Positions 3,192 through 23,587 of a stretch of 23,587 bases of DNA are shown one piece after another. Made by a program: the position numbers and the translations under genes. Source of the stretch: a virus; the IMG/VR virus record IMGVR_UViG_3300031951_013541, positions 1 through 23,587 of that record, one strand, 5' to 3'. Positions within the stretch are counted from its first letter, which is position 1. The number at the start of each line of letters is the position of its first letter. The notes under the pieces were generated by a model that was given only the letters and a program-made list of their open reading frames with translations, searched no databases and was not told the origin of the DNA.

Positions 3192-3202
3192 ATTGAATTA
3201 AT

Positions 3203-3230
3203 ATATTACTTTAGTTTTACTTTTTTTCAA
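3203..3230 (-). promoter_or_regulatory. Possible sigma70-like promoter for the dut/clamp loader operon
   Basis: On the minus strand TTGAAA (3230-3225) is followed after 16 nt by TAATAT (3208-3203). This lies in the only gap between the divergent genes at 3191 and 3250. Transcription would start about 5 nt before the ATG at 3191, giving an almost leaderless mRNA. The match is by eye in AT-rich DNA, so chance is a real alternative. Confidence 0.3.
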
Positions 3231-3249
3231 GAGTTGTTTAAATATCTTT

Positions 3250-3765: not shown

Positions 3766-3776
3766 TAACAACACAT

Positions 3777-4376
3777 ATGCCTTACGAATTTATTGATAGA
3801 GAAGAATGTATTGGAGATTCTTTATTTAAAATTAACAACAATTCTTTGAATTTTGATAATCGAATTACAAATTTATCTTCCAGTTTTGTAGCAAGTTCTC
3901 AATCACTGACTTCACAAATATATTCACCAGGATCTATATTAAAAGCTTCTTTTCATGGGTTTTCAGAAAACTCAACCAGATCCGGCGATTTGCGAAACTA
4001 CGCCACAGTAAACAATGGCATTATAACAGTTATAAGTTCAAGAGCGAATAGTCGGTTTTTGGTTACTGTTAATGGTCAGGGTTATACTGCACCTGGAGCT
4101 GGAGGTGTAAATGTGGGTATACAAAGAATTATCGGTGGAAATACTTCCAGACTTTTAGGGGTAGATGGAAATTCTGGAGATTCTTGGATGGGCACATCTA
4201 ATGGCCATTATGGCTCTTTTAGCATTACTCGGAGTTACTTAGATTCACCTGGAGTTCCTTCAGGTACCGTAATTTATTATTACCTACTTCACGGTCACTG
4301 GTCTGCTGGTACTAGTTATATTGGATATCCCGGATACACTAGCCAAAGTTCTATCGTAGTCTACGAAATGGTTTAA
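3777..4376 (+). CDS. Small tail-fibre/tip-like structural protein (199 aa)
   Basis: The first 50 or so residues (EFIDREECIGDSLFKIN, then repeated Ser/Asn turns) look like an attachment segment. From about residue 60 to the end the protein is Gly/Ser/Thr/Tyr-rich beta structure, with RFLVTVNGQGY, RIIGGNTSRLLG, SFSITRSYLDSPG and a tip rich in His/Tyr/Trp (YYYLLHGHWSAG). This composition and the 'SLSYLDSP' strand are typical of small jelly-roll fibre-tip domains in T4-like marine phages, so a virion role in host recognition is likely. It follows the terminase-like gene by 11 nt and ends in a 4-nt overlap with the convergent 73-aa gene, whose operon encodes the main fibres. The structural class is fairly clear; the exact role is inference. 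Confidence 0.68.
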   Translation: MPYEFIDREECIGDSLFKINNNSLNFDNRITNLSSSFVASSQSLTSQIYSPGSILKASFHGFSENSTRSGDLRNYATVNNGIITVISSRANSRFLVTVNGQGYTAPGAGGVNVGIQRIIGGNTSRLLGVDGNSGDSWMGTSNGHYGSFSITRSYLDSPGVPSGTVIYYYLLHGHWSAGTSYIGYPGYTSQSSIVVYEMV

Positions 4377-4594
4377 TAAGATCCTCCATCAACTATGAGT
4401 TTTTCTTCTGGTAAAATTAACCCAGAAAGAGCTACCCATAACGAACTATTAGATTGAACAAGAGAACTTGTACTTTTAATGTTATCAGATATTTCTTGTT
4501 TTAAATCAACATAATCAATTGAATTATTCAAAATAATATCTGAATTAACAGAACTTAAAGCTAAAGATTTAGTAATGATTTTATCGATCGCCAT
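4373..4594 (-). CDS. Small protein at the end of the tail fibre operon (73 aa)
   Basis: The protein begins MAIDKIITKSLALSSVNSD and ends EEKLIVDGGSY. It contains one central amphipathic stretch (DLKQEISDNIKSTSSLVQSNSSLWVAL). It starts 5 nt after the stop of the 1120-aa fibre gene, in an AT-rich context (TAAATTATATG) like other starts here. The middle segment resembles 'SSSFVASSQSLTSQI' in the convergent 199-aa protein, which hints at a related attachment helix, but the match is short. A virion or fibre-assembly role is inferred from position only. Confidence 0.58.
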   Translation of the reverse strand: MAIDKIITKSLALSSVNSDIILNNSIDYVDLKQEISDNIKSTSSLVQSNSSLWVALSGLILPEEKLIVDGGSY

Positions 4595-4599
4595 ATAAT

Positions 4600-7500: not shown

Positions 7501-7962
7501 AGTTGAACCGTTAGACAGTTGTATTTGCTCGTTGGGAATAAAATTACCTGTTTTAGATTTCAACTTTATCCAACCACTAGAAGGTAAAGGTTTAATATTA
7601 CCATTAGTCGAAGAAATAGGCTCGTAATCTGTATTATTCCAAACACCGAGTAATTTTCCATATGCTCCAGAAGTTGTTCCTATGGATTCAGGTGTATTTT
7701 CAATTGCACTTAAAATTGGAACCGTACCAGAAGATGATGAAAATGGAATCTCCCAAACATTTCTACCATCAATCAAAATTGATCCACCATATGCACCTTC
7801 AATTACAAGTCTGCTAAAAACTGAACCATTATATCCCCACCTGTTATCAGAATCTATAATTAAGTTAGAGTTACGCAAAAATATAAGATCATTATTAACA
7901 AAACCAGCTAACGCACTCGAATTATATGTGAATGTGCTATTTGTAATTGTGAAATTAGCCAT
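4600..7962 (-). CDS. Large tail fibre/tailspike-like protein with a right-handed beta-helix (1120 aa)
   Basis: From about residue 250 to 680 the protein carries irregular repeats of short Asn-rich strands: NCENIEIKNCF, NCKLNNVSILAV, NATNIKIRNMHIVA-like runs and NCYLYPSSF. These are the stacked rungs of a parallel beta-helix as in pectate-lyase-like phage spikes. The N-terminal 240 residues are Gly/Ser/Trp-rich beta modules (GDWYYLNETTNGQYNQVIKV, GVWIETNPNS). The C-terminal 110 residues contain DYRLYRDDGDIPIV, then YAGRVNITRVETGVSGLTEE, a segment seen at the end of many phage fibre or baseplate proteins. A host-binding, perhaps glycan-binding, appendage is likely. Whether it cleaves polysaccharide cannot be told, since no catalytic residues are assignable. 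It begins 3 nt after the 132-aa gene (TAAATTATG). Confidence 0.83.
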   Translation of the reverse strand: MANFTITNSTFTYNSSALAGFVNNDLIFLRNSNLIIDSDNRWGYNGSVFSRLVIEGAYGGSILIDGRNVWEIPFSSSSGTVPILSAIENTPESIGTTSGAYGKLLGVWNNTDYEPISSTNGNIKPLPSSGWIKLKSKTGNFIPNEQIQLSNGSTITISSSGKRSWINVVGKAGGYYDHQTTIGTLSTKGDWYYLNETTNGQYNQVIKVPVKDNINGVWIETNPNSEQYMPWHNAATSWGLLNVTNVLSSGFIYGELSANGRIFNSSLENGTITIAYSGVDGKFGYLPPANCKIRVPNIFLSSSGNGTGTPTASAATGSYSQNIVANSYDDMFYRRSGTRTANFENCNSNWSYNANGAGIDFILRNSAVHAKMNYGATDNIVIDNVIASPYKGYTAYNYDNSTSCLAIYNAKNCKLNNVSILAVNGSTYGVLGNSSVPFYINDCENIEIKNCFSMIPNAGRELRYNIQVARNTGTFLIQNFSYLGAHGMSLTNTNNTTIYNTKGKQFVNGILDVTATGRILFNLNNCNNTFIDGVYQLTELNNSVKNSSGIPTGDPSITLYAYNLTNNVELRNVGTQTNPLTSFSASTNNGSFGVLDIYDATNIKIRNMHIVARKLIADIGTSGQSKGTLADTILMENCYLYPSSFGRSGEIPNYKNCTIRGTLVAAVTGNTSIPQGDVGGVHFKDIFYSDSNGLLYLMANVPTDLTSNYVAVDLIPNGTNKSGFLGDSMITLCNVGDSITWEMPYYMLGHTGFRNVQPTIRGTNVTNLSAAFQYDNTKNGYNNNWLTLNAQNLSAISIDPTIGIKMKIRVTSTANVVNTIFNYLYIETNTNSISQQIRYPLPKTNKGTITNLITNSRVQIYNETTGQELYNVIHQESGDLIYDYNNGEEISIGDIIRIRVTYINGTTAKLRHEVKAVASPTGFTAFADQEDDVIYNLHAINGSTITEFTADYPTIQVDINDPDQTTSIPRLYAWWVANEYTEQGIRNYYEGLIAEDVANYKIITDVVDLKLDNTRNVGVVFEGDYRLYRDDGDIPIVTTTSGGGSVILYAGRVNITRVETGVSGLTEEESDTLLKINTIPQDTFSLKLSSITEDETIGMRLKSSATVSNVSQILSDTLSI
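6329..6354. repeat. Perfect 11-bp inverted repeat with 4-nt loop inside the beta-helix gene
   Basis: Arms TTAACTGAATT (6329-6339) and AATTCAGTTAA (6344-6354) flank GTTT. It lies within coding sequence (QLTELNNSVKN) and has no U-run after it on the transcribed strand, so it is not a classical terminator. It could be a chance AT-rich palindrome. Confidence 0.6.
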
Positions 7963-7965
7963 AAT

Positions 7966-8364
7966 TTATAAAGTATACCTGTCCGTCCAAGCTATATTTA
8001 CTGAAGATGCAGAAGAAATAAACGTACCCGTAGAAGAAAATATAGACTTTTTAATTGTCCATAAGGGATCGGTTTCTAATGTTCCTATTGGAGAAGTTCC
8101 TATATATGTAGCACTCATTCCATAATATTCAGACTTGTATTGTTTTGATTGAGTAGAACTTCCAGTTCCCAGTTTTGTTACACTTTTATCCGAATTGATT
8201 ATATATGCTCCATCATCTATTACAGAACAAACTTGCCCATAATATACATAAGGAGATGTGGTTGCATAGGAAGTTAAAGAATGATATGTCGAATGAACTT
8301 CTGTTGTATCCAATGCTTCTGCTTGGAGTCTATAAAAATTAACTGGAATAGTTAGAAATGCCAT
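7966..8364 (-). CDS. Small tail fibre-associated structural protein (132 aa)
   Basis: This lies between the two large fibre genes, with 3-nt spacers on both sides (TAAGTTATG and TAAATTATG), so it is part of the fibre operon. The protein starts MAFLTIPVNFYRLQAEALDT. It contains a beta-hairpin unit GQVCSVIDDGAYIINSDKSV ending KLGTG, a pattern common in phage fibre/baseplate connector proteins ('G.v..V.ddg.yy..d....w..l'), and ends in NIAWTDRYTL. It may link, cap or trimerise the neighbouring fibres. Function is inferred from the pattern and the neighbours. Confidence 0.65.
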   Translation of the reverse strand: MAFLTIPVNFYRLQAEALDTTEVHSTYHSLTSYATTSPYVYYGQVCSVIDDGAYIINSDKSVTKLGTGSSTQSKQYKSEYYGMSATYIGTSPIGTLETDPLWTIKKSIFSSTGTFISSASSVNIAWTDRYTL

Positions 8365-8367
8365 AAC

Positions 8368-11337
8368 TTAAAAAGATACTGAATATGTTTCTGCTTGTGG
8401 GTATCCTGCAGAGACCAAATATGTATAAACTCTGTAATTTGTAGAATTTGAATTGTTTGCTCCAGCAACAGAAACTGTTGTGTTTGTAAATGCGGTTGTA
8501 ATATTTCCTACCCCTACTTGTACTACTTGAACATTTATATTCGATAATGATGTTGGGAATGCAAAAGAAACTCTCTTATCTCCAGCTTGAATGTTTATAT
8601 TAAAAGATCTGGATGTAGTGGAATTTTCGAAAGATCTTACTTGTGTGGAATCAGAAGCCGCTGTAGTTGTTGTATCCGCTGTATAATAATTATTTCTAAA
8701 CGGGATAAATGTTGTAGTAGCTGTTCTAGTTCCTGATGGTGGTGGTGTTCCTGATGGGTTTCCTATATTATCATATAATTGAGGCCCAGTACCGTAATCA
8801 ACTTCTGTTGTAAAAGTGGTATTAGCATTAAGCTGAAAACTAGTTAAGAGCGGAGTAGAAGTAGAAGTAGAAGAAAGAATGCTTGCTCCAGATTTTATTC
8901 TAAATTGTGTAGCATCTCCAGCACTACCCTTATTGAAGTTTGGTGTTAAAGTTGGAGAGATGTTTGTTCCTATTTCATAGGATAGAGTAGTTGGGGATAT
9001 GGAAACGGAAAGTGTTGGTTGAGTATATACGGCAGGTATTACGGTTGTTAATAAATTTTTAAGAATAGTTTCAAAAGGAGTATTTGCGGGTATTACTGTA
9101 TTATTTGAATATGCTCCTAAACTTGAAGAAAGTTTTGCAGTAATAGGAGTTGTTGTAGTATTTGTTGATGTAAGGCTTGGTTGTAGATTTTGAATGTCTT
9201 GAATTTCTAATAATACATTTCCCGTTTTATTTGCAACAGATTGAACTGGAGCAGCAGATGCTGCTCTTTGAATTGTAAAATATTTGTTAAGCGAACCTTC
9301 TAATAAACTATCGGTTGTACCTGGTGATCCTACTATCTCGACATATGTACTTCCGCCCCATCTATAAACCTTGTTATTATCTAGTGTAATATAAAGAACA
9401 CTTTGAAGACCAGTTCCAGTCGAAGTTAATGAATCGAAAGTTGTATATTCTTGAATCTCATCAACAGAACCTGGTAAGTGAATCGTTGGTATTAAATTGT
9501 TTACTAACTCTACATAATTTCCGGCGGGTTGTTTGGAGTTGAGTGTACTTTGTAAATTGTTTATGTCTGTTATTTCAAGCGTCACATCACCAGTTTTAGT
9601 CGCTACTGATTTAACTGGAGCATCTGAGATAACTCTATCTGATCTATAGAAAAGATGAACAGAACCTTCAATTAGATCATCCGTATTTCTTACCGTATCG
9701 CCTGTATCGCCTTTAGGCCCGACTAAGCTATTTAAGAAATCTTGTTCTGATCCTACATTACCTTCAGAAGTCCAAATATCATATGCGCTTTGTCCTGTTT
9801 CTCCGATGTCTCCTTGTACACCCTTTAAACTACTTAAATAATCAGAAACTGTTCCATCGTTTCCAGCTGATAACCAAACCTGATAAGAATTTTCTCCCTT
9901 TGGACCAGCAATACCTTGTTCACCTACAGGCCCGACTAAGCTATCTAAAAAATCTTGCTCAGAACCAGAGTTTCCATTACTACGCCAAATATCATAAGCA
10001 CTTTGCCCATCAAAACCATTCTCCCCTTGAATGCCTTCTGGTCCTTCAATCCCCACAGGTCCGATTAAACTATCTAAAAATTCTTGTTCAGAACCTAAAT
10101 TTCCATTATCACGCCAAATTTCATAAGCACTTTGTCCTATCGGTCCTATATCACCCTTATCTCCTTTAAACGCAAGTAATCCATTAACTGTTTGATAATT
10201 TGGTGTTATTATTACAATATTAGAACCAGAATCTGGAGGATCTATAAATTTAACTATATCGCCTGAAAGGGTATAAGAAGAATTAGAAAGTTGTCTGACA
10301 TTATCTACAAACACTTCAACAAGTGAAGCATTAGAAGAATTGTTAGTTCCTGAAACTGTAAAATTGGTTGTAACCCCATCCGCAGCAAAAATAAATTTAG
10401 AAGGGTCAGGAATTAAAGCATTAGAAGGAATCCCATTATTGGAACCACTAAAAATTTGAGCTAAATCTACACCACCAGACAAATAACGACCCAATACATT
10501 TAAATCACCATTCATGGTACCACCATCCGCATATTGAACTGCATTGGTACCACCACCACTACTACTCATTCCTATGTTAGGATAAACTTGTCGAACTTTG
10601 TTTATTTGTTCAGCGACAATGGATTTAATTTTAACATCTTCCTCAGATGGTTTTATCTCGTTTTTACTATCTCTAGCAAGCTCTTGGGCGTATTTAGAAA
10701 CAAAAGATGATTTCTTTTCAGTCGAATCGTCTTTATTTAAATTTAATAATTCTACATTATTCTCCTCTTCAGTCTTCTCTTTTTTTACTTTTGTTTTACT
10801 AGAAGCTTTTAATTCTTTTACTATAGATTGAACTCCACTTTTTTTCTTTTTTTCTTTTTCTAACGCGTTGCCTAATTCAGCAATAAATGATTCAAAAGGT
10901 TCTTCTGATTTTTGTGCGTCAATTTCTATATCGTTGGAAGTTTCTTTTAAAGGAGGTTCATTTATTTTTTTTAATTCTTTTTCCTTTTTTAATGTTTGTG
11001 CTAATGTAGTTACAAAAGATTCAAAAGGTTCTTCAGGGTTTGGTGTAGGTTCTAAAATTTCATTTAGAGGTTCATCAGATTTAAGTAATTCTTCTTTTTT
11101 TTCGGGAACAACTTCTTGACTTGCTAGAGGAACATCATTTATTTTTTTTGACTCTTTTTCTTTTTTTATCGTCTCTGCTAAGGTAGCAACAAAAGACTCA
11201 AACGGCTCTGAAGATTTAGGCAGCTCATTAGATTGTTGATTTTCTTCAACAACTACAATTTCTTCTTTATTCTTGGGTTCATCACCTTTGTCAGAAGCCT
11301 GTTTGTAGCCTTCAATGACATCAGCCGCATAAGACAT
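8368..11337 (-). CDS. Long tail fibre protein with collagen-like repeats (989 aa)
   Basis: Residues 1-250 are charged and Lys/Glu-rich, with three copies of an EPFESF...KKEKE..KKIN motif (44-70, 103-130, 146-170) and a degenerate fourth near 210. Around 272-300 is DGGTMNGDLNVLGRYLSGG, a common fibre hinge. Residues 300-390 form a beta module ending in a DNVRQ-type turn. About 390-550 holds collagen-like Gly-X-Y runs alternating with four 'SAYDIW....G..QDFL.SL.GP' units. About 553-720 has two copies of a 'L.EGS...F...R...APV.SVA.KTG.V.LEI.DI.NLQ' fibre repeat. The last 240 residues start SVSISPTTLSYEIGTNISP and are all beta, like the receptor-binding ends of other phage fibres. It is a virion appendage for adsorption, directly downstream of nrdA (15-nt gap). 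Confidence 0.9.
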   Translation of the reverse strand: MSYAADVIEGYKQASDKGDEPKNKEEIVVVEENQQSNELPKSSEPFESFVATLAETIKKEKESKKINDVPLASQEVVPEKKEELLKSDEPLNEILEPTPNPEEPFESFVTTLAQTLKKEKELKKINEPPLKETSNDIEIDAQKSEEPFESFIAELGNALEKEKKKKSGVQSIVKELKASSKTKVKKEKTEEENNVELLNLNKDDSTEKKSSFVSKYAQELARDSKNEIKPSEEDVKIKSIVAEQINKVRQVYPNIGMSSSGGGTNAVQYADGGTMNGDLNVLGRYLSGGVDLAQIFSGSNNGIPSNALIPDPSKFIFAADGVTTNFTVSGTNNSSNASLVEVFVDNVRQLSNSSYTLSGDIVKFIDPPDSGSNIVIITPNYQTVNGLLAFKGDKGDIGPIGQSAYEIWRDNGNLGSEQEFLDSLIGPVGIEGPEGIQGENGFDGQSAYDIWRSNGNSGSEQDFLDSLVGPVGEQGIAGPKGENSYQVWLSAGNDGTVSDYLSSLKGVQGDIGETGQSAYDIWTSEGNVGSEQDFLNSLVGPKGDTGDTVRNTDDLIEGSVHLFYRSDRVISDAPVKSVATKTGDVTLEITDINNLQSTLNSKQPAGNYVELVNNLIPTIHLPGSVDEIQEYTTFDSLTSTGTGLQSVLYITLDNNKVYRWGGSTYVEIVGSPGTTDSLLEGSLNKYFTIQRAASAAPVQSVANKTGNVLLEIQDIQNLQPSLTSTNTTTTPITAKLSSSLGAYSNNTVIPANTPFETILKNLLTTVIPAVYTQPTLSVSISPTTLSYEIGTNISPTLTPNFNKGSAGDATQFRIKSGASILSSTSTSTPLLTSFQLNANTTFTTEVDYGTGPQLYDNIGNPSGTPPPSGTRTATTTFIPFRNNYYTADTTTTAASDSTQVRSFENSTTSRSFNINIQAGDKRVSFAFPTSLSNINVQVVQVGVGNITTAFTNTTVSVAGANNSNSTNYRVYTYLVSAGYPQAETYSVSF
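9692..10172 (-). repeat. Collagen-like and 'SAYDIW' repeat region in the 989-aa fibre
   Basis: Four imperfect units read on the minus strand. Each is made of SAY(D/E)IW or SYQVW, a G.SEQ(D/E)FL(D/N)SL-type stretch, and a Gly-X-Y triplet run such as GPVGEQGIAGPKGEN. Unit length falls from about 43 to 33 residues through different numbers of GXY triplets. The underlying DNA is repetitive as well, so copy-number change by recombination is plausible. Confidence 0.85.
10828..11208 (-). repeat. Three-copy EPFESF/KKEKE motif in the N-terminus of the fibre
   Basis: Protein copies begin EPFESFVATLAETIKKEKES (44), EPFESFVTTLAQTLKKEKEL (105 region) and EPFESFIAELGNALEKEKKK (146 region). They are separated by Glu/Pro-rich linkers of unequal length (starts about 59 and 43 residues apart). 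Each is a short aromatic patch followed by an amphipathic, Lys-rich helix. The copies are clear by eye. Confidence 0.85.
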
Positions 11338-11352
11338 ACTATTACTTATAGC

Positions 11353-13008
11353 TTATCCTTCACATGACTTACATGTAAGTATAGAACGAGCTAATTCTTG
11401 AGCGGGATTAGCAGATCGTTGATAGTATAAACTTTTAATCCCTTGTTCCCAAGCAAAGATCATTAATTCATTAACTTCTTTTGGTTTAGTGTTTGGCGGA
11501 ATCATTAGATTCAACGATTGGCCTTGATCAATATACTTCTGGCGTTGTGCTGCTTGAATGACAATTTCTTTTTGTGAAATTTCACCAAAAGTCTTAAAAA
11601 CATTCTTTTCTTCTTCTGTAAGAAATTCTAAATGTTGTACGGAACCACCATGAACCAAAACAGACTTCCATACTTCATCATTATCTTGATCTTTATCTTT
11701 AAGAAGTTTTTTAAGGTATGGATTTTTATATGTGAATTTGCCTTTAGCTAGATCTTTAACAAAATAATTGGAATTAAGAGGTTCAATAGAAGGAGACACT
11801 TGTCCTAAAATAAAACTAGAAGAAGTGGTAGGTGCAACAGCAAGAGTTGTAGTATTCCTTCTTTTGTCTTTGGAATCACCATATATAGGAGCTTCACCAA
11901 AAATCTCAGCTAATTCTTTAGTAGCGGAGTCTGCTTTGTCTCTAATACTTTTCCAAATTTGATTGTTAAGCATTTTAGCTTCCATGGATTCAAATGCAAT
12001 CATTTGTGATTGAAGAAGAGAATGCCAACCCAAAACACCTAAACCTAAAGCTCTTTGATTTTCAGCAAACTTTCTTGGAGCTTGCATAAATTGCATATCT
12101 TTTGTCTTTTCGATAAATTCAGACATCACTGCATCCAAAAAATAAATTATAGTTTGTACTGCATCAGTATCTTTCCATTCTTCCCATTTCTCTAAATTCA
12201 TAGAAGATAAATCACAAACAAAAGATTCATCTTCTGAATTAGACAGAAAAATCTCTGAACAAAGATTGCTATTATTAATTTTTAATTTTTTATCTTTATA
12301 AATTTGAGGAGCTTGATTATTAGCATTATCACTAAAGAAAATATAAGGATAACCAGATTCGAAACGTTTCTTGACAACAAGACCCCAAATACGTCTTGCT
12401 TCTTTATCTCCATCAACTATCTTCTTCATCCACTCATCTGAAACACAAACACCAATAGAAAGGTCTTGAATTTCATTACCCTCAGAACGTATTTTAAGAA
12501 ATTCTTCAATGTCAGGATGATCGATAGGAAGGTAAGCTGCAAAAGAACCTCTACGCACATTTCCTTGGGAGACCACATTCATTAGTTTATTATAAAGTTC
12601 CATGAAATGAACAGATCCAGTAGAACTACCCCCAGAAGAAATAGAAGTACCTCTCCCCCTCACACCACCAAAGTAAGCTGAAGTACCACCGCCTTGTGCA
12701 GTCATAATACCAACCTCAGCAACCTTTTCTAAAATACCAGGCATGGTATCTGGGATATAAGAACCAAAACAAGAAATAGGAAGACCTCTTTTACGACCAA
12801 AATTAGCCCATATAGGAGAACTTAAACTGTAAAAGCCTCTAGAAAGATAATCTTCAAACTTATCAGCAAATCCTTTAATTTGAAGATATTTTTCTGCAGC
12901 GACACAAATATCTTTAATTCTTTGTTCTGCAGACTCCCCATCCAACAAATATCCTCTTTCAAGAAATTTTCGAGAATCTTTGTTGAGCCAATAAATGTCT
13001 TTATTCAT
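11353..13008 (-). CDS. nrdA: Class I ribonucleotide reductase, catalytic alpha subunit, short form without ATP-cone
   Basis: The enzyme reduces ribonucleoside diphosphates to deoxyribonucleotides for phage DNA synthesis. All catalytic residues are visible: Cys80 (PISCFG) and Cys265 (SFVCDLSSMNL), the redox pair; Asn248, Cys250 and Glu252 (SNLCSE), the thiyl radical site; Tyr528-Tyr529 (SLYYQRS), the radical-transfer pair; and the C-terminal CKSC (546-549) that re-reduces the active site. The specificity loop region is TAQGGGTSAYFGG to GGSSTGSVHF. At 551 aa it is much shorter than E. coli or T4 NrdA (about 750 aa), because it begins almost directly with the ten-stranded barrel domain and has no N-terminal ATP-cone. 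It follows nrdB by 35 nt and precedes the 989-aa fibre gene in the same orientation. No SD precedes its ATG. Confidence 0.97.
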   Translation of the reverse strand: MNKDIYWLNKDSRKFLERGYLLDGESAEQRIKDICVAAEKYLQIKGFADKFEDYLSRGFYSLSSPIWANFGRKRGLPISCFGSYIPDTMPGILEKVAEVGIMTAQGGGTSAYFGGVRGRGTSISSGGSSTGSVHFMELYNKLMNVVSQGNVRRGSFAAYLPIDHPDIEEFLKIRSEGNEIQDLSIGVCVSDEWMKKIVDGDKEARRIWGLVVKKRFESGYPYIFFSDNANNQAPQIYKDKKLKINNSNLCSEIFLSNSEDESFVCDLSSMNLEKWEEWKDTDAVQTIIYFLDAVMSEFIEKTKDMQFMQAPRKFAENQRALGLGVLGWHSLLQSQMIAFESMEAKMLNNQIWKSIRDKADSATKELAEIFGEAPIYGDSKDKRRNTTTLAVAPTTSSSFILGQVSPSIEPLNSNYFVKDLAKGKFTYKNPYLKKLLKDKDQDNDEVWKSVLVHGGSVQHLEFLTEEEKNVFKTFGEISQKEIVIQAAQRQKYIDQGQSLNLMIPPNTKPKEVNELMIFAWEQGIKSLYYQRSANPAQELARSILTCKSCEG

Positions 13009-13043
13009 TAGATTATTTTATTGCACTTTTGAGGATAGTCACA

Positions 13044-14018
13044 TTAAAACAAATCATCCTCTGAAAAAGATTGATTCTTCTTAGAGTATTCCACTGGTCT
13101 ACTCGAAAAAAAGTCAGTCATGTTGTTGCCCAAAAGTTCCTCTTCAAACCACATAGTAGACGTTATTGTCTCTTTGTCTGTCTCAAAAGCTTTAGGAAAT
13201 TTGATCATTCCTAGCGATTGATTAATTCTGTTTTTTACAAATTCTTTTAAAATATCAGCACTAAGACCTTCTTCTTGAATACCATTAACCATCCAATCAA
13301 TAATTTTAGCTTCGGCTTTATAAGCTTCTTCTGCTTCATGAAGAATTCTATCTTCTAATTCTTTATCGAATAAATCAGGATATTCTTCACGTATGGTATT
13401 AATAATCTTAGCACCTACTAATGCATGAATATTTTCTTCATTGCGGGTATACTTGACTTGTTGGTCGGTGTCTTTGAGAACATTTTTAAATCTAGCAAAC
13501 CAATTAATAACATAAAATTGACTAAACAAAGAAACATTTTCTACAAAAAGAGTAAACAAAATTAAAGCATAGAGATATTGTTTCTTGGAGTCCTTATAAA
13601 ATTTATGGGTATACTTTTTAAGATAATTGACTCTACCTTGAATCCAATCTAATTTTAAATTTTGTTCAAATACTTCTTCTAATCCTAAAACAGAAAGTAA
13701 TCTTTCATACGCATTATTATGAATTACTTCAGTGTTTGCCATCACATACCCCAAATCTTGAAGAGAAGGATGGGGGAGATTTTCCCCGAGTTTAGCCCAA
13801 AATGTTTTAACAGCTACTTCAATTTGCCCGATAGCAGAAAGAGTTCTAATAACAATTTCTCTTTCCTGGTCATTTAAATTAACTTTAAATTGTTGAACAT
13901 CGGATTTAAAAGAAAATTCTTTATCTGTCCAAAATCCATTATGCATAGATTGAATAAATTGTTCGGTCCAAGGGTAAAAGTTTGGTTTTCTAGAGATTTG
14001 TTCTTCAAATATTTTCAT
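13044..14018 (-). CDS. nrdB: Class I ribonucleotide reductase, radical-generating beta subunit
   Basis: This ferritin-like helical protein of 324 aa holds the dimetal centre that makes the radical passed to NrdA. Ligands can be read as Glu67 (QIEVAVKTFW), Glu97 and His100 (NTEVIHNNAY), Glu160 (LFVENVSLFSQF), and Glu195 and His198 (EENIHA). Tyr104 lies four residues after His100, as Tyr122 does in E. coli, so a tyrosyl radical is likely. Glu67 takes the place usually held by Asp84 in E. coli. The C-terminus SFSEDDLF is the tail peptide that docks in NrdA. The N-terminus starts straight into the fold, so there is no ATP-cone here either. It lies after a 60-nt gap downstream of the 183-aa gene. 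Confidence 0.97.
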   Translation of the reverse strand: MKIFEEQISRKPNFYPWTEQFIQSMHNGFWTDKEFSFKSDVQQFKVNLNDQEREIVIRTLSAIGQIEVAVKTFWAKLGENLPHPSLQDLGYVMANTEVIHNNAYERLLSVLGLEEVFEQNLKLDWIQGRVNYLKKYTHKFYKDSKKQYLYALILFTLFVENVSLFSQFYVINWFARFKNVLKDTDQQVKYTRNEENIHALVGAKIINTIREEYPDLFDKELEDRILHEAEEAYKAEAKIIDWMVNGIQEEGLSADILKEFVKNRINQSLGMIKFPKAFETDKETITSTMWFEEELLGNNMTDFFSSRPVEYSKKNQSFSEDDLF

Positions 14019-14682: not shown

Positions 14683-15183
14683 ATGGCTATTAAAATTAAA
14701 AATTTAGAACAACTGGCCTCAGAATACACTACACAGAGGTATGTTTTTAAAGATTTATTTTTGGACATTAATCTTTCTAAAATACAATCTCCAGGATATC
14801 CGTTGCCTGTACCTGGAGCAGACATTAAAGCTTCTTTTGATGTCGGTGCTATAACAAATTCTTTAACTAATTTGTTTAATACTTTACCAGGTCAAAGATT
14901 TTTATTTCCAGAGTATGGATTAGATCTTCATAGATTTCTTTTTGAACCTATGAGTGATTTTAATGCAGAAATTTTAGGCCGTAAAATTTTAAACGGTATT
15001 GAAACTTACGAATCCAGAGTAAAAGTTTTACAAGTAAGAGTAATACCTGATTACGATAATAACCTTTATAACATAACTATAATGATAGAAATACCAATTT
15101 TAAGTACTACAACCCAAACACAATTTAGTTTAGATTTGAAAAAACAAACATTTATATTTGTACCGACTTCCAGAAACCAGTAA
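14683..15183 (+). CDS. 25: Baseplate wedge subunit, gp25-like
   Basis: This protein nucleates sheath polymerisation and joins the gp6 ring in contractile tails and related injection machines. It has 166 aa; T4 gp25 is 132 aa and the extra length is mostly N-terminal. The family signature is at about 69-92: PGQRFLFPEYGLDLHRFLFE, the 'G.r...PefG..l...lFe' core. It is followed by the helix ILGRKILNGIETYESRVKV and paired strands VRVIPDYDNNLYNITIMIEI that complete the fold. The next gene (gp6-like) starts 3 nt after its stop (TAACGTATG), matching the functional partnership. The start has no SD. Confidence 0.92.
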   Translation: MAIKIKNLEQLASEYTTQRYVFKDLFLDINLSKIQSPGYPLPVPGADIKASFDVGAITNSLTNLFNTLPGQRFLFPEYGLDLHRFLFEPMSDFNAEILGRKILNGIETYESRVKVLQVRVIPDYDNNLYNITIMIEIPILSTTTQTQFSLDLKKQTFIFVPTSRNQ

Positions 15184-15186
15184 CGT

Positions 15187-17013
15187 ATGACCATAAACAC
15201 ACCAAATAATAATTTTGATATCCCTAAAGGAGGGTATGTAGCGTTTGATGCTTTATCTTTAAGAGAACTCATTATAAATCGCTTAAATGAACAAAAAGTT
15301 TTTACCGACCAAAACTATTTGGGTTCAAATTTAGCATCTATCATTGACATCATATCTTATTCATATCACACTTTAATTTATTATCTCAATAAGACTTCAA
15401 CAGAATCTATGTTTTCAGAAGCGCAGCTTTATGAAAATATTAATCGTATTGTTAAATTAATTGATTATTCACCAATCGGTTTTCAAACATCCACACTGTC
15501 ATTTAATTGCTCAGCACAAAATTTAATACAAGGACTATATACTATACCTAGGTATTCGTATGCTTTAACCAATGACATCCCATTTTCATTTAATGAAGAC
15601 ATTACTTTTAATAAAACTACAACACAAGCAGAATCTTTAGATGAATTAGCACAACAAAAAATACTTTTCCAGGGGTATTATCAGGAATACCCCCTTTATA
15701 CTGCAGCGGGTGATGATAATGAAATTGTTATTTTAGACACCGCAAACGAGCAAGTAGACCATTTTAATATTGACGTGTATGTCAAACCTAAGCTTACAGG
15801 TAAATGGGAACAATTTACCAAGACAACTAATCTCTTTTTAGAGACAGGTACAGCCAAAAAATGTGAAATTAGATTAAATCCGAATAAAAGATATGAAATC
15901 AAATTCGGAAATGGTATCAATGGTTATAAATTAGAAGAAGGTGACTTAGTTGCTTTGTATTATTTGAGGTCTTATGGTGCATCGGGTGTCGTTGGTGCAG
16001 GAGCATTCAATACAAACACCAGGCTTATTAGATATGACACTATTCAATACAATCAAATTTTAAATGATTTGTTCAGTGACAATTTAAGATTTTTAACAAA
16101 TGCAGAGTCTTCGGCTTTATTTTTTACTAATAGTGTAAATTCGACACCTATACAAGAAGCAGAAACAGTAGAACAGATAAGAAATTCAGCACCTTCGTCA
16201 TATAAAAGTCAATATAGATTGGTTACAACCAATGATTTTGAGACTTATGTAAAATCTAATTTTTCAAATCTCATATCTGATGTTAAATGTGTGAATAATT
16301 GGTCTTATGTTTCGGATTATTTGGGTTATTTTTATAATATGGGGTTAAAAGATCCATCTAAAACCGAAAGAGCTCTTTTTAACCAAATCAATTACGCGGA
16401 TGCGTGTAACTTTAACAATGTTTATTTGTTTGTAGTTCCAAGATCTGCTACACAAAATTTAGATTACTTGACAGCATCACAAAAAGAATTGATATCTTCT
16501 TCATTACAGGCCGTCAAAATAGCAACTATTGAACCTGTTTTCATTGATCCTGTTTATAAAGCAGTAAGTTTAGGCATAACATCTTCATTAGAAACTTTAA
16601 ATCCTGTTAACGATGAAGAATTATGCAGATTGCAAGTTATAAAAAGAATTTCTTCAAGAAGAAATGATGAATCAATTAAAAAAGATATCGTCAATATCAT
16701 TTCAAATTACTTTAATCGTTCAAGAACCGCATTTGGTGCAGTCTTAGATGTAAGATTATTAACTCAACAAATTTTAGGGGTTGATGGAGTAGAAACCATA
16801 TTCACAGTTCGCACAGATGACTCAACCATTAGAACAGAAGGTTTATCATTATTTACATGGAACCCGATATATCCAGACAACGATAAAAAAGTTTCTATTA
16901 ATAATGTACCTTTAAGATTTTTTGAATATCCTTTTTTCAACAATCTATCAACTTTACCTTCAAAAATTGTAGTTTCACCTGTAAATAATATTTTTGAAAA
17001 CCCTGAATACTAA
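15187..17013 (+). CDS. 6: Baseplate wedge subunit, gp6-like (baseplate J family)
   Basis: This is the core wedge protein whose dimers form the inner baseplate ring and trigger sheath contraction. It has 608 aa against about 660 in T4. Supporting segments are the N-terminal helical region SNLASIIDIISYSYHTLIYY, typical of gp6/J proteins; a central beta domain; the signature around residues 325-355, EQIRNSAPSSYKSQYRLVTT followed by NDFETYVKSNF; and a C-terminal region with alternating strands and helices (SLGITSSLETLNPV, FGAVLDVRLLTQQILGVDGV). It is flanked immediately by gp25-like and wedge-position genes, with 3-nt and 2-nt spacers, forming one wedge operon. Confidence 0.93.
   Translation: MTINTPNNNFDIPKGGYVAFDALSLRELIINRLNEQKVFTDQNYLGSNLASIIDIISYSYHTLIYYLNKTSTESMFSEAQLYENINRIVKLIDYSPIGFQTSTLSFNCSAQNLIQGLYTIPRYSYALTNDIPFSFNEDITFNKTTTQAESLDELAQQKILFQGYYQEYPLYTAAGDDNEIVILDTANEQVDHFNIDVYVKPKLTGKWEQFTKTTNLFLETGTAKKCEIRLNPNKRYEIKFGNGINGYKLEEGDLVALYYLRSYGASGVVGAGAFNTNTRLIRYDTIQYNQILNDLFSDNLRFLTNAESSALFFTNSVNSTPIQEAETVEQIRNSAPSSYKSQYRLVTTNDFETYVKSNFSNLISDVKCVNNWSYVSDYLGYFYNMGLKDPSKTERALFNQINYADACNFNNVYLFVVPRSATQNLDYLTASQKELISSSLQAVKIATIEPVFIDPVYKAVSLGITSSLETLNPVNDEELCRLQVIKRISSRRNDESIKKDIVNIISNYFNRSRTAFGAVLDVRLLTQQILGVDGVETIFTVRTDDSTIRTEGLSLFTWNPIYPDNDKKVSINNVPLRFFEYPFFNNLSTLPSKIVVSPVNNIFENPEY
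15672..15693. repeat. Perfect 8-bp GC-rich inverted repeat inside the gp6-like gene
   Basis: GGGGTATT (15672-15679) and AATACCCC (15686-15693) flank ATCAGG. The arms are unusually G/C-rich for this DNA. It encodes QGYYQEYPL, so the symmetry may partly follow from the protein. No U-run follows. Confidence 0.6.
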
Positions 17014-17015: not shown

Positions 17016-20000
17016 ATGTTGCAAGTTAATTTCACAGTAACTCCCACAGCAGGTAATGTTCATTCAACAGAATTTACATTTACAGACACTACATCAGGAG
17101 CATCTGTTTATCGTTATGTTTGGGGTATAGATAATAATAATTTAATTTATGAAACACCTAATTTAAAACACACTTTTAAATATCCAGGTCTTTATAATAT
17201 AACTTTATCAGCAACGGATTTTGACGGTAATCAAAATGAAATTACAAAACAGGTTTTAGTAGATTTAGCTCATAGAGATTATTTAAAATTTACACAAATA
17301 CCTGAAGAATATGCAAACCCAGGGAAGAAAACAAAAATACCATTTAAATTTGAAGTACTTTCTTCTAATCCAGACAAACCACTTTTAGTAGATTTATTTG
17401 CAGCAAATTCCCTTTCGATACCTTATCAATATGTTCCGGAAAAATGGAATTTTTTAAATCCTACTTGGAAGTTTTTAGACAAAAATGATAACGTTGTTAC
17501 TACATTATCTGTAGACCCCATTAAAATTTACGAAAATAATAAAGTAGTTGCTGTATCTGGTACCGGTGAATTTTATTATGTTGATTCTTTAAGCACAGGA
17601 AATCCTACTACCAATTGTCCACTTTTAATAACAGCAACATTACAAACTTCAGGATTTTCTTATCCTTTAGATTCTTCAGTATACCCATATATTTCACACT
17701 CCAATAACGAATCGGTAAGAAGTGCAGTAGTATGGCAAGTAAATGATGTCTTCCCTACAAGGTTAAAAATAACAGGAAATTATTTAGACCCCATTAATGA
17801 AATACAATGGAAAAATATTAAAATGCCGATGTTAATAACAGTGCATTCTAATCGCTCTGATTTAATTCCCGGCAGTGAAGATGATTTAAGTGAAGTTATT
17901 TTTTCTTATCCAAAGACAAATGAATTAGGGAATATATCAGAAATTTTTGCGTCTAAAGAAATTCAACTTATAAACATATTAGATCTTTTATCATTAGATC
18001 CTATCGGTGGGTATATTTTATTAGAAAACGGCGGAAGAATCCCTTTAGAAATTTCTGATAGTTATAATGTTATTGTTACAAATACATTGGCTGGAGGAGA
18101 CCAATATAGACTAGATGATGACCCAATTTATTTCCAATCATTAGATTCTCAAGGATTCAAAATTGGTGGATATATTTTTACTACAGTCACTACTCTTTCT
18201 ACTATTAAAAATGCATCGATTACTTTAAGAACGTTTGGTGTCAATATTCAACCACCCACTAATGATTTTGTTTACCCTGAAGGATTTTCACCTAATCCTT
18301 GCGTATGGATATCAAATCCCGCTCAAAGCACTCTTAATAAAATAACATTAGTTCCAAACAACGGAAATTGTGGAACTATTGATTATTTTAAAAATAAAAA
18401 ATTATTAGTAGAAGGTGTAATAAAAGAAGTTAAAGTACCACAATTAGAATCAGTTCCTAATTTCAATTACCCTCTTTCCGGGTTTTCTGGTGTAGGAACT
18501 ATGGCAATAGACCCTAGAAATTATGATGTTATTGCAGCAGATGTCGAATTAGATAGAATTTATAAAATATCCAATTCCGGAGAAATATTAAAAACATTTA
18601 GTCTTTCGAGTTTAAATGATTATGACAGCCAAAAAAAGATGTTTGATTTTTGGTCGTGGAAAACTCCTTCACAATCTTTGTCTTCTAGCAATTTTACTTT
18701 TTATAGTCCTGCATTTAGAAGCGCTGACCTTAGAAATTATATTGTAACCTTAGACGGATTAATTTGGCCTGTAGGTCGTATTAAAATTAGAGATAATCAA
18801 ACAATAAGAATCTACACCCCTTCTGGTGCTAATCATTTTCTCAAACCCAGAGACGCAAATCTTTACCCACCAGAAAATTTAGATTTCAGTGTCATTCAAA
18901 TATTCAATCCATTATTACCTACTGAATATATAAATTCTTTATCTTATTGGGATTATGTCACTACAACCAGTACAACATCATTCGCTCTCACAGGTTCAGT
19001 TTTAAATGATCCAAATAGATATATAGTAAGCGTTGACGGGTTTTATGAACCCCCGACAAATTACACTATTGACTCTGATAACAATTTATTAAATTTTAAT
19101 ACTCCAGTAAATGCAGATTCTGTAGTCGATATTCATTATTTTGAAAAATCATCGACTCCTGCTTTTTGGGAATTTAATTTAACCGCAAATACCAACTTTT
19201 TACCCTTAACCGGTAATTCATATTATGTACCTGACCCTCATTCTGGGTTCATTGTTAGTGTTGATAAAAAATTAATAAAAACGACAGATTTTAAATTGAA
19301 TGTAGAGGAATCAAAATTAATGTTCAATTATGGTTTGTCTGCAGGATCAAATGTTTATGTGACACAAATAACTGTAGACGAATCTGTTTATGTGCCTGCT
19401 GCTTATACTCCATCATGTATAAGTCTTGATAAAAATTATAACATATGGGTAACTCTTTATGATACTGTTTCAGTATTAAAATTAGACCCGGATTTTAATT
19501 TACTCTTCAGTACTGCTCCTAATAATATACATTGGGATCCTAGAAGCCATACTAAAAACCCAGATAATATAGATTATCAATCTAACGTATTTGGCATAGG
19601 TAAAAGATATAATCCTTTAGATACTTTAGAGGACGACACCTACTCAGAAGACTTTTTCTTAAAACCTTCATTTTGCGAAACAGATAAAAATAATAATTGC
19701 TGGGTTACTTACTCCAATCCGTTATGTAGTCTTTTAGTAAAATACAACCCTCAAGGAATACCATTAGCTGAAATACCAACAGGACATCTTAGTACGCCAA
19801 CCAGTATATCAGTTAATGCTGCAAATAATATTTGGGTCACTAATACTCACAACTCTTCTTATTTTAGTACACCTCTTTCTGGTAGTATAGATTTGTATGA
19901 CACACAAACATATACTAAAACAAAATCTGTTACAGGCATATCAAGACCATATCATCTATCAATTGATAGATCTAATAATCTTTGGTTCTGTCATGGATTA

Positions 20001-21209
20001 AGAAGAATTGGATATTATAACACAACCACAAATCAACTTTCTTCATGGATTTTAGACCTCAGTGGAGGATTTACTGTGTTTGAAATGCCATCAGGTTCTT
20101 TGGTGGAATTTGATGAAGTAGATAATGAAGAAAATAATGAATTGGGTGGTTTGGCCGTTGATGTTTATGATAGAGTTTGGATTTTAGACAGTACCCAAAA
20201 CACGGTTTGGGTTATTAGTGCTTCTCCTCATTTTGGTGATTCTGAAATTAGATATTTTAAAGCAAGACCACAAAGCTTAATTGGTTATTATAATGACATA
20301 AACAACAATTCAATATACACTAAAAGTGAAAATTATTTTTATGAATCTATTAAAGCGACCGGAGATTGGACAGGAAATCGATGGTACCAAAAATACGTAA
20401 CTTATTCAACACTGTCTTCTGTATTATTATCAGGAGTTTCAAATACATTTTCTGTATTTGAATTTGAAGATAAAAATCAAATTAAAAGAATTAATGAATC
20501 TTTTAATAATGCTCAATATTTTAAAAATTTAGCTCTTCCTGAGGTTTTAAAAAACAATTCTACTTTATTTGATCAGATTTTTGCGGGGACTGTGGGTACA
20601 GGATATTTGAGTGGTAGTGAAGATTTAGGTCAAACCATTTATGAAAAAATTGCTAATTTTACTTCAAACCATTCAGATGTAGATACTTGTAACATTGAAC
20701 AATTATTATCTTTGGCTGAAGAAGTGGACCAACCGGTAGAAGACTTTGGAGGTACTTTCCCAACAGAGATCAAAAGGCTAATTGATATATTTTCTATACC
20801 TAGAGCTAAATTATGGGGAGTAAAAGAACAAAAACCTTTATTTCCTCAAAGTATGGGGATGGAATACAAACCAACAGATATTATTCAAGCAGGTGAAAAA
20901 ATAATAGTTAAAAGCAAATTTGATAACAGTATTAAAATAGTAGATGTACCAATACAAAATAATCAAACAACTTACCCGTTATCTACATTTTTAGGTTATG
21001 GGTTGAAACAACCATTATTTTCGAATTATCTTTTTTATAGATACGACCCTGTTTATTCCGACAAATATGTCGAAAATATTATTGATTGGGATGCAGAATT
21101 TACTACTTTATCACCCAATGCATCTAGTTTTGAATCCTGGTATGGCAACAATGGATCTATAGAAACTGCATTTAGATATTTGTTGACTAAGAATTTATTT
21201 GTTAAATAA
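17016..21209 (+). CDS. Very large mosaic baseplate/tail protein at the gp7 position (1397 aa)
   Basis: The gene begins 2 nt after gp6-like. In T4 this place is held by gp7 (1032 aa), the wedge scaffold, and I infer an analogous role. Residues 1-88 form a PKD-like Ig domain (YVWGIDNNN, HTFKYPGLYNITLSATD). About 490-530 is one propeller-like blade (GVGTMAIDPRNYDVIAAD). About 559-785 are three fibre-type modules with 'IVSVDG' strands. About 800-1070 gives five more blades of the NHL/Vgb type: NYNIWVTLYD, NNCWVTYSN, NNIWVTNTH, NNLWFCHG, DRVWILD. The end contains GDWTGNRWYQKYV (about 1115) and PTEIKRLIDIFSIPRAKLWG (about 1250), a segment I associate with phage wedge proteins. There is no signal peptide or membrane segment. 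Confidence 0.82.
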   Translation: MLQVNFTVTPTAGNVHSTEFTFTDTTSGASVYRYVWGIDNNNLIYETPNLKHTFKYPGLYNITLSATDFDGNQNEITKQVLVDLAHRDYLKFTQIPEEYANPGKKTKIPFKFEVLSSNPDKPLLVDLFAANSLSIPYQYVPEKWNFLNPTWKFLDKNDNVVTTLSVDPIKIYENNKVVAVSGTGEFYYVDSLSTGNPTTNCPLLITATLQTSGFSYPLDSSVYPYISHSNNESVRSAVVWQVNDVFPTRLKITGNYLDPINEIQWKNIKMPMLITVHSNRSDLIPGSEDDLSEVIFSYPKTNELGNISEIFASKEIQLINILDLLSLDPIGGYILLENGGRIPLEISDSYNVIVTNTLAGGDQYRLDDDPIYFQSLDSQGFKIGGYIFTTVTTLSTIKNASITLRTFGVNIQPPTNDFVYPEGFSPNPCVWISNPAQSTLNKITLVPNNGNCGTIDYFKNKKLLVEGVIKEVKVPQLESVPNFNYPLSGFSGVGTMAIDPRNYDVIAADVELDRIYKISNSGEILKTFSLSSLNDYDSQKKMFDFWSWKTPSQSLSSSNFTFYSPAFRSADLRNYIVTLDGLIWPVGRIKIRDNQTIRIYTPSGANHFLKPRDANLYPPENLDFSVIQIFNPLLPTEYINSLSYWDYVTTTSTTSFALTGSVLNDPNRYIVSVDGFYEPPTNYTIDSDNNLLNFNTPVNADSVVDIHYFEKSSTPAFWEFNLTANTNFLPLTGNSYYVPDPHSGFIVSVDKKLIKTTDFKLNVEESKLMFNYGLSAGSNVYVTQITVDESVYVPAAYTPSCISLDKNYNIWVTLYDTVSVLKLDPDFNLLFSTAPNNIHWDPRSHTKNPDNIDYQSNVFGIGKRYNPLDTLEDDTYSEDFFLKPSFCETDKNNNCWVTYSNPLCSLLVKYNPQGIPLAEIPTGHLSTPTSISVNAANNIWVTNTHNSSYFSTPLSGSIDLYDTQTYTKTKSVTGISRPYHLSIDRSNNLWFCHGLRRIGYYNTTTNQLSSWILDLSGGFTVFEMPSGSLVEFDEVDNEENNELGGLAVDVYDRVWILDSTQNTVWVISASPHFGDSEIRYFKARPQSLIGYYNDINNNSIYTKSENYFYESIKATGDWTGNRWYQKYVTYSTLSSVLLSGVSNTFSVFEFEDKNQIKRINESFNNAQYFKNLALPEVLKNNSTLFDQIFAGTVGTGYLSGSEDLGQTIYEKIANFTSNHSDVDTCNIEQLLSLAEEVDQPVEDFGGTFPTEIKRLIDIFSIPRAKLWGVKEQKPLFPQSMGMEYKPTDIIQAGEKIIVKSKFDNSIKIVDVPIQNNQTTYPLSTFLGYGLKQPLFSNYLFYRYDPVYSDKYVENIIDWDAEFTTLSPNASSFESWYGNNGSIETAFRYLLTKNLFVK

Positions 21210-21215: not shown

Positions 21216-23587
21216 GTGAGTAATACTAATCAACAAATCTTACAAAGATACGCTCAACCGATATTTGTATCATCATCTAAAAATGATACAAATAAGCCTT
21301 TTACTTTCAAAGAATGGTATGATTCTCATAGAGGAATAACACCAGACCAAGAATTTAAACAATACAATGAGTATTTAGTTAATTGGTATAAAAATAAATC
21401 ACAAACTGTATCTGATAGTAGATTACAATTAAAATTAAATTATCTATCTCTTTTAAAACAATTACAATTATTTTTTAATAAAGAAGAGTCAGAAAATTGG
21501 TATAATAAAGTCAATGTAGAAAATGAAAAAGAATTATTGTTGGCTATACCTTATTTTGCTAAAAAATTAAAAGATATTTCTCTTTATTATTTGCAATTAA
21601 GAAAAGCCATTAAAGAAACTAAATTAAAATATAATCAGGTAGGAACTAGTAATAGTTTAATACAACAAATACAGGAAATAATAGCTAAAAATTACGCACA
21701 AAAAAATAACAATTCTATAAATTTACCTGCCAGAATTTGGAACACGCTTCCTCAATTAAGTTCATTAAATACCAACTTAGCTATTCAATTAGAGGAATTA
21801 TACGATTTTCATTCATACTTCGACCAAACACCAACCTTACCAGCTTCTGCTTATTTTGATACCAATTCTGAAGATCTTAAAAACTTTTTACATACTAAAA
21901 ATTTATCTTTAACATCGGCTGAATGGATTTATAAATTAGGTACCTTTTCTTTATCAGGAGATGAATATGAAGGAGATGACATATCTGATTTTATTAAAGC
22001 ATTAAGTGAAAAGTACATGGGTGAAGATAAATTTATTTTTTCTGAAACCCCAACACAAAGTGCAGCTACAGATTTTTTTAGTCTTTTTATTCAAGAAGGA
22101 AATAATTCTTTTTTCTGGCCTGGTACCGTTTATGAATCAAAAGCACTTTTATTACCAAGATATAATAAAGTTCTGTTATCTGAATTGGGTTTAGAAACTT
22201 TAGGAACTGCAGGATCAAGTATTGAATTAGCAGACACTATCTTTGTTAAAACTGATAACGGAGTGGAAGCAGCTTGGTTAAGAAATTATTTTTCAGATTA
22301 CAAAAAAGAAACCATGAAGGCCATAATCGATCCTTCAACAAAAACTTCTTTTAGATTTCCGTTTCCTGGATATGGATTGTCTGGAGAGGACATAGAATGG
22401 ACTGGTTTTTCTCTTGAATCTGATAAACGTTATCAATACCTAGACGACGCATCAAAACAAAATATAGAAAATGTATATTGGTCAAGTTCTACCGCACTGT
22501 CATCCATTAAATCTTTGCCGATAAATGAAACCACTTTAGTTAAAAATAACGCTAAAGCCCATAAAAATTATAATCACGCAGATCAAATTAAAGTTTGGGA
22601 TTATGCTCCGAATTATAATGATAGTAGTGTACCAGATGTAATATCAGAAGCTTGGTTATATCGTTTCGATAAAACAGACATATCAGTAAATGCAGGTTCT
22701 GATAATGTTATTTTCTGGCCTTATGAACAAATAGACACTTCAAAAGAATTTCCAAATTATTATCCGAAAGCTTTATCTGATGTTTGTACTTCAATGGCAG
22801 TATCTTCTATAGATTTTGTTTTTGCTACAGCAGGTGAATCATTATCATCATCGGATGTTATTTTTAAAATTAAAAATTATAAATTTGGCACAGAAGATGC
22901 AACTGAATGTTGTTGGTTGTCTGGTTCTAAAATAGAAGTACCAGAAGAAAAAATAAGATTTATTGAACAGGAAACATTACAATTAGTTTTAAGTTCGGGA
23001 GAATTTACTCAATTTATTTGGAGTGGTAATGATTTAACCGATGCGGATACTGTTTTTAAAAGTATAGCACATCAACCAGATTGTGCATTTAAAACTACTC
23101 AATATGTTTCTTATTTAGATCATCCTAAATGTACTTGTTCACAGGTTAATTATAGTCCTTTCGGTCATCCTGGAAATGTTTATGAAGAAAATAAATCATT
23201 AGCTGACTTTATTATAGAAGACAACTTTGCACCTGAAAGTTTAGATTTAAGTATTTGGAAAGATGACTATAATACAACTACGACAAGTAGTTCTTCTTTT
23301 GGTTGGTATAAAACATCTTCTGATATTGGTTGGGGTAGTGGTTCTTGGTATTCTGGTGATAGTGAAACTGGAAATAAATTTTATTTAAGAAAAGGTAAAA
23401 AATACATTTATCATAGAGCTAATGTTACAGACTTAGATCCAGAAACTAATAGTCTACCCCGTTACATAGTAAGACACAAATATAATAATAAAAATAAACC
23501 AACATGGGTTCATGCTAAGAAAGATTCTGAGGGTATTTGGGTCAGTACCGATAAACCATCACCCATGATATTAAATCCCGGAGATCT
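21216..23587 (+). CDS. Very large structural protein with GTG start, continuing past the window end (at least 790 aa)
   Basis: The frame opens with GTG at 21216, three codons after the in-frame TAA that ends the preceding gene. It has no stop up to the last base, so the 3' end lies outside. The nearest in-frame ATG is hundreds of codons downstream, which supports the GTG. The first 200 residues are helical and Lys/Gln-rich (SLLKQLQLFFNKEESENWYN, KKLKDISLYYLQLRKAIKET). Later come FRFPFPGYGLSGEDIEWTG (about 380), ECCWLSG (about 564), HPKCTCSQVNYSPFGHPGN (about 637) and a Gly/Ser/Tyr beta region after 700 (GWGSGSWYSGD). Position after the gp25-gp6-gp7-like genes indicates a baseplate wedge or peripheral tail protein. 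I cannot assign a family. No SD precedes the start. Confidence 0.85.
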   Translation, partial: MSNTNQQILQRYAQPIFVSSSKNDTNKPFTFKEWYDSHRGITPDQEFKQYNEYLVNWYKNKSQTVSDSRLQLKLNYLSLLKQLQLFFNKEESENWYNKVNVENEKELLLAIPYFAKKLKDISLYYLQLRKAIKETKLKYNQVGTSNSLIQQIQEIIAKNYAQKNNNSINLPARIWNTLPQLSSLNTNLAIQLEELYDFHSYFDQTPTLPASAYFDTNSEDLKNFLHTKNLSLTSAEWIYKLGTFSLSGDEYEGDDISDFIKALSEKYMGEDKFIFSETPTQSAATDFFSLFIQEGNNSFFWPGTVYESKALLLPRYNKVLLSELGLETLGTAGSSIELADTIFVKTDNGVEAAWLRNYFSDYKKETMKAIIDPSTKTSFRFPFPGYGLSGEDIEWTGFSLESDKRYQYLDDASKQNIENVYWSSSTALSSIKSLPINETTLVKNNAKAHKNYNHADQIKVWDYAPNYNDSSVPDVISEAWLYRFDKTDISVNAGSDNVIFWPYEQIDTSKEFPNYYPKALSDVCTSMAVSSIDFVFATAGESLSSSDVIFKIKNYKFGTEDATECCWLSGSKIEVPEEKIRFIEQETLQLVLSSGEFTQFIWSGNDLTDADTVFKSIAHQPDCAFKTTQYVSYLDHPKCTCSQVNYSPFGHPGNVYEENKSLADFIIEDNFAPESLDLSIWKDDYNTTTTSSSSFGWYKTSSDIGWGSGSWYSGDSETGNKFYLRKGKKYIYHRANVTDLDPETNSLPRYIVRHKYNNKNKPTWVHAKKDSEGIWVSTDKPSPMILNPGD
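21262..21294. repeat. Perfect 12-bp inverted repeat just inside the last gene
   Basis: TATTTGTATCAT (21262-21273) and ATGATACAAATA (21283-21294) flank the 9-nt loop CATCTAAAA. It begins 46 nt after the GTG start. It is followed by AGCCTTTTAC, not a full U-tract. It could be an mRNA hairpin controlling processing, attenuation or translation, or a chance palindrome. Confidence 0.75.

Follow-up and report, generated by a model that had tools for sequence, protein, structure and literature searches.

The protein encoded directly after gp6 in a T4-like baseplate cluster appears to possess an NHL/Vgb-type beta-propeller whose blades 1 and 2 are set apart by an intervening cassette of three tail-fibre modules. 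The cluster lies in the window, by which we mean the whole stretch of DNA that was analysed, 23,587 bases of a metagenomic virus record from IMG/VR. We assign a probability of about 60% to the reading that a propeller in this T4-like wedge-position protein has been split by the fibre cassette and provides an accessory platform with a host-contact stalk. Such a protein would be a clear before-and-after case of how phages build parts for host contact, with a stalk of fibre domains added to a propeller that is still whole in its relatives.

Genomic context and relation to T4 gp7

The target gene is an uninterrupted open reading frame (ORF) of 1397 amino acids on the + strand (17016..21209), starting three bases past gp6. 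Two baseplate wedge subunits precede it on the same strand in the order gp25 (14683..15183; PF04965, 2.8e-13) and gp6 (15187..17013; phrog_219, E 4.8e-42), and together these genes make up a T4-like baseplate cluster. The - strand of the window encodes a clamp loader, a dUTPase and genes for ribonucleotide reductase. Orthologues are likewise placed after gp6, which is found directly upstream of the relatives' genes wherever the contig extends that far.

The place directly after gp6 is that of T4 gp7 (BW3), a protein that assembles with two copies of gp6 into a wedge trimer. Gene position alone suggests that the target protein is a BW3. The two proteins also have in common an Ig-like N-terminal domain (fn3 in gp7, PKD here), but they share no sequence or profile similarity: hmmsearch and hhalign comparisons with T4 gp7, five relatives, Mosig and two cyanophage gp7 genes found no homology, the profile-profile probability against T4 gp7 is 0.1%, and the Gp7 Pfam domain is absent from the window protein. 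For the fold, the 50 best PDB matches of the window model contain no gp7 chain, and neither do those of the model of L077, a relative without a propeller, whose pLDDT is only 61.8; a gp7-like fold is still conceivable. The gene that follows (window 21216-23585; full length L002:8045-13150) has a GTG start, encodes about 1700 amino acids and is conserved across the group; it matches no PHROG, NCBIfam or PDB family. Its 1701-aa product was considered as the true gp7, and the comparison with gp7 was negative.

Two large ORFs on the - strand of the window adjoin each other. One, of 989 amino acids (8368-11337), has many tail-fibre and collagen-like PHROG matches, which make it a candidate for the fibre that the stalk would hold; the other, of 1120 amino acids (4600-7962), has no PHROG match.

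Domains flanking the propeller

The N-terminus is formed by a PKD (Ig-like) domain at residues 6-78 (17031..17249, + strand; Pfam PKD_4 5e-6, covering residues 16-78, and PKD 2.7e-4). With a profile of the whole family, the PKD domain of collagenase is matched in the PDB at 1e-19. The window protein stays just under the cutoff of the curated PKD profile (26.9 of 27 bits), and three relatives (L012, L085, L074) lie above it. A further beta-sandwich, Ig-like region is placed at residues 86-424 (17271..18287, + strand), for which the family search gave no match. Its assignment comes from the predicted fold of the propeller-less L077, whose N-terminus is modelled with moderate confidence (pLDDT 61.8) as tandem Ig-like domains.

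The C-terminal domain (residues 1091-1397; 20286..21206, + strand) is partly helical, carries the motif YEKIANF and is well conserved within the family; it has no PDB or relevant Pfam match. The original prediction had described this part as a wedge-like end. A conserved domain is indeed present, but the match to gp7 was not found.

The propeller

NHL/Vgb-type propellers are built of tandem blades, some 40-45 residues long with four antiparallel strands apiece, and the window protein shows this pattern. AlphaFold2 (AF2), run on residues 300-1140 with 48 sequences (mean pLDDT 71.5, pTM 0.62), predicts six groups of four strands. Blade 1 (493-529; 18492..18602; pLDDT about 83-91) is separated by the insert from blade 2 (799-833; 19410..19514), and blades 3 (883-921; 19662..19778), 4 (928-976; 19797..19943; NHL Pfam match at 925-947), 5 (979-1013; 19950..20054) and 6 (1043-1082; 20142..20261) follow, all on the + strand. 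A blade profile trained on relatives recovers all five of blades 2-6 with E-values from 5e-11 to 0.02, the best E among 200 shuffled controls being 0.56. Within the region 799-1082 there are matches to NHL in Pfam (5e-4), the designed propeller Pizza6 (7e-6, phmmer) and, by the family profile (2e-22), NHL/Vgb-type blades including those of PknD. The best NHL alignments are some 300 columns long, a length that fits five blades plus little else and counts against a disc that includes blade 1. In the Foldseek search of the PDB, Vgb lyase and NHL propellers, which form rings, rank first; a single ring closed by blade 1 against blade 6 would be a possible arrangement.

Blade 1 is the weakest by sequence, because its E-value, 5e-4 when the blade 1 sequences of relatives are part of the training set, is only 0.77 when they are left out. 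It is preceded by a blade-like hairpin at residues 429-446 (18300..18353, + strand), with AF2 strands at 429-434 and 439-446 and a conserved W-x-x-x-P, a possible seventh half-blade. Owing to this hairpin the exact count of six is uncertain, and the model is best read as a propeller of six, possibly seven, blades.

The fibre-module cassette

The cassette occupies residues 538-795 (18627..19400, + strand). Its three modules, of about 60 residues with the consensus Y-IVSVDG-I-QSP-SYTI, are found at residues 558-632 (18687..18911), 654-711 (18975..19148) and 727-785 (19194..19370), all on the + strand. Module 1 was located by the module profile, the family alignment and AF2, module 3, the weakest by sequence, by the module profile and AF2, and module 2 matches a tail protein family directly (phrog_29076, 7.6e-4). 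The profile that locates the three modules was itself built from them; in a leave-one-out test module 2 is recovered at 2e-5, and modules 1 and 3 weakly or not at all, so that the mutual likeness of the modules rests mainly on the predicted strand pattern and the family alignment. For modules 2 and 3 the AF2 pLDDT is mostly 88-96.

A kinship with phage tail fibres is indicated by profile matches to tail-fibre families: seven of 13 modules match phrog_18673 (tail fibres), a further match lies in a tail-collar fibre gene of PaBG (PaBG_00243), and single modules are present in collagen-type and lipase-type fibres. Against the PDB the cassette profile gave nothing significant, and single modules found only a spore filament protein (0.006).

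Evidence for an insertion

Relatives were sought in IMG/VR with a query of 397 aa that covers the later blades and the beginning of the C-terminal domain. Of the 106 that were found, 80 were kept and reduced to 49 aligned members, the window included. From position 532, where blade 1 ends, to position 798, where blade 2 starts, 43 of the 49 have only 2-73 residues, so the site of the cassette is empty in them, as opposed to 255-265 residues in five members, the window among them, which we call stalk bearers; the one remaining member, L077, has no propeller. The alignments fall cleanly into two segments: against the compact relative L012, residues 1-537 and 796-1395 of the window protein abut at subject positions 496 and 501. 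We regard the contiguity of blades 1 and 2 in the relatives as the decisive evidence, and on these alignments the split is explained as an insertion of the fibre modules into a once-continuous propeller. The AF2 model agrees: in it the insert begins behind the final strand of blade 1 and ends at the strand that opens blade 2.

Most of what had been predicted for this part of the protein is borne out by these results. The PKD-like Ig fold, a single blade near residues 490-530, three 'IVSVDG' modules at about 559-785 and five further blades at about 800-1070 were all recovered, and both the relatives and the structure prediction favour the proposal that a fibre stalk is inserted in a split propeller.

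The cassette is present in 11 of 102 distinct complete proteins, each time at the same site, and also in three further incomplete ones. Four full-length proteins from at least two lineages have no detectable propeller at all (L077:2840-5035, L194:4372-6903, L176:4498-6909 and L173:4618-6939).

Three other interpretations of the architecture have to be weighed here. The propeller might be complete from 799 to 1082, with residues 493-529 belonging to another fold; the sequence weakness of blade 1 and the blade-like hairpin in front of it would fit this. In compact relatives, however, the gap to blade 2 shrinks to as little as two residues, like the spacing of blades 4 and 5, a ScyF NHL model of NCBIfam aligns blades 1 to 3 of L012 in one stretch (4.6e-5, below the cutoff of the model), and AF2 gives blade 1 four strands as in the other blades, which makes a separate first blade improbable. 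Virginiamycin B lyase heads the PDB fold matches, which could point to a streptogramin-lyase-like or otherwise catalytic propeller, but the matches to NHL, LRP6 and designed propellers are almost as good, identity is low throughout, and the gene belongs to a structural cluster; an enzyme is therefore very improbable. As the window is a metagenomic record, two genes could also have been joined during assembly, a suspicion that is refuted by the recurrence of the same junctions in ten or more distinct contigs, which come from different samples.

History and divergence of the cassette

On a tree of gp6 the five stalk bearers form one clade together with the compact L012 (SH-aLRT 99), and on a tree of the C-terminal domain (88 rows) ten stalk bearers group with four compact relatives (support 95). 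Judged from both trees the stalk belongs to one lineage, and a single gain, with or without later loss, is therefore enough to explain its distribution.

The genome G001 (locus L095) possesses three cassettes, one in the orthologue of the target gene and one in each of the next two baseplate genes (L113, i.e. G001:C1:14500-28500 in reverse-complement coordinates; genes at 1638-5573, 5579-11320 and 11317-13293). The second copy is a clean insertion at residue 1462 of the homologue in L002, the third is situated near the start of the following gene. The copies are 61-75% identical to each other and at most 44% identical to other cassettes, and were therefore copied or homogenised inside the G001 lineage. 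In another locus (L128:6854-12837) the downstream gene bears a related module triplet, at a nearby site that differs from that of G001.

Four stalk bearers were compared in six pairs, and in each pair the cassette is the part of the protein that is conserved least; in one such pair it is 57% identical, against 70-73% for the Ig region, the propeller and the C-terminus. This is as expected for an exposed or host-facing part, and weak constraint would look alike. A tentative extension of our reading, to which we give considerably less credence than to the reading itself, is that the cassette might be a plug-in part, copied within the genome between neighbouring baseplate genes and set into any outward loop that tolerates it; one baseplate would then bear identical docking or adhesion stalks at several sites, the wedge propeller being one. 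If true, the propeller in the wedge is one mounting site among several for such a stalk.

Putative function

Besides a core of PKD, Ig-like and C-terminal domains the protein has, in most relatives, an NHL/Vgb-type propeller, which we envisage as an accessory platform outside the wedge. In the lineage of the window the three-module cassette was inserted in the loop that leads from the final strand of blade 1 into the opening strand of blade 2. The two blades would still pack side by side around the insert, and the cassette would stand out from the face of the propeller as a short stalk, which may dock a fibre or spike, or may itself touch the host surface. Both cassette and propeller seem dispensable for basic assembly, since there are relatives without the cassette or without the entire propeller. 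In known baseplates it is BW3 (T4 gp7) to which the receptor-binding proteins attach (PMC10811340). For the propeller the original prediction had suggested a docking hub or a binder of surface glycans, and both are possible.

The docking or adhesion of a host-contact part is the function we favour, and a brace between wedges is its main rival. Under the latter, propeller and cassette would link one wedge to the next, or to the sheath, and have no role in adsorption. Subunits of the T7 nozzle contact one another most strongly through loops of the propeller (PMC6702177), and the repetition of the cassette in three adjacent baseplate genes of G001 is what matching parts of an interface would look like. 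Yet at least two separate lineages lack the propeller and most lack the cassette, and the cassette diverges faster than the rest of the protein, unlike a conserved interface, so that we consider a brace possible but clearly less probable than docking or adhesion. Propellers are general binding platforms, and the disc itself might be a lectin-like receptor-binding domain that binds surface glycans and is merely extended by the cassette. Its gene holds the position whose product carries the receptor-binding proteins in other phages (PMC10811340). This explanation we deem unlikely, given that the propeller shows roughly the same conservation as the core and is not hypervariable, and that no lectin or carbohydrate-active family was matched.

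Comparison with known propellers and fibres

The statement in the original prediction that no named phage family is described in this way is too strong, because the nozzles of T7 and SU10 share the design of a domain-interrupted propeller bearing a fibre dock. In T7 gp12 the propeller has seven blades, a loop of blade 3 gives rise to an inserted domain, and there is a dock for the fibre (PMC6702177). In SU10 (Kuravirus), a short-tailed phage whose nozzle has seven blades and lines the DNA channel, the chain exits between blades 2 and 3 as four inserted Ig-like domains, and a loop on blade 1 docks the short tail fibre (PMC9509320). The likeness of the window protein to both is one of architecture only. 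T7 gp12 belongs to another tail type and has a channel-gate role, and in contrast to SU10 we deal here with a wedge-position protein of a contractile tail, with fibre-type modules after blade 1. The gene lies in a gp25-gp6 contractile-tail cluster, which does not fit the nozzle of a short tail, with its platform domain and DNA channel; by analogy, the window protein may work like a podoviral nozzle, but we do not class it as one.

With the NHL and Vgb propellers (PknD, TRIM71, virginiamycin B lyase, ScyF) the window protein shares the blade repeat and the fold, but here a stalk of about 258 residues interrupts the propeller, inside a phage baseplate protein. Likewise, the 60-residue 'Y-IVSVDG' module of phrog_18673, phrog_29076 and PaBG_00243 is elsewhere part of fibres, whereas here three stand in a row within a propeller. 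The literature that we searched, which mostly excluded subscription journals, holds no report of a propeller in a myoviral wedge. Given the T7 and SU10 nozzles, our finding is therefore a known design in a new place and not a new category, and it hints at propellers with inserted domains as a design that recurs in phage tails, found in short-tailed nozzles and in a baseplate gene of contractile tails.

Occurrence in environmental viruses and further observations

A search with the C-terminal domain found 265 candidate loci in environmental viruses. Searches of 50,697 phage records by tblastn, in which the window protein, two relatives, the C-terminal domain and the cassette served as queries, found no relative, and a search of bacterial genome contigs for a clue to the host gave no match. 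A common type of baseplate may therefore lack a studied isolate. The top viral fold match (994 columns) is A0A6J7XER1, a "PKD domain containing protein" of an uncultured Caudovirales phage; it is most likely a member of the same family already in UniProt and, as a point of difference, carries no functional description. The family is widespread in environmental viruses.

Some relatives show other peculiarities. In another clade (L055, L053, L059 and L052, also L074 and L085) a different insert of about 90 residues lies inside blade 4; it does not consist of the fibre modules of the cassette. In L025/L027 the C-terminal domain seems interrupted, the ORF (6126-11216) being 1696 amino acids long and the last part of the domain forming a separate small ORF (11245-11556), which could be due to an insertion element, an intein or an intron. 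The gp6 of L098 is divided into two ORFs (648-1418 and 1575-2453), with residues about 254-310 uncovered between them, and here an intron, a frameshift or an error could be the cause.
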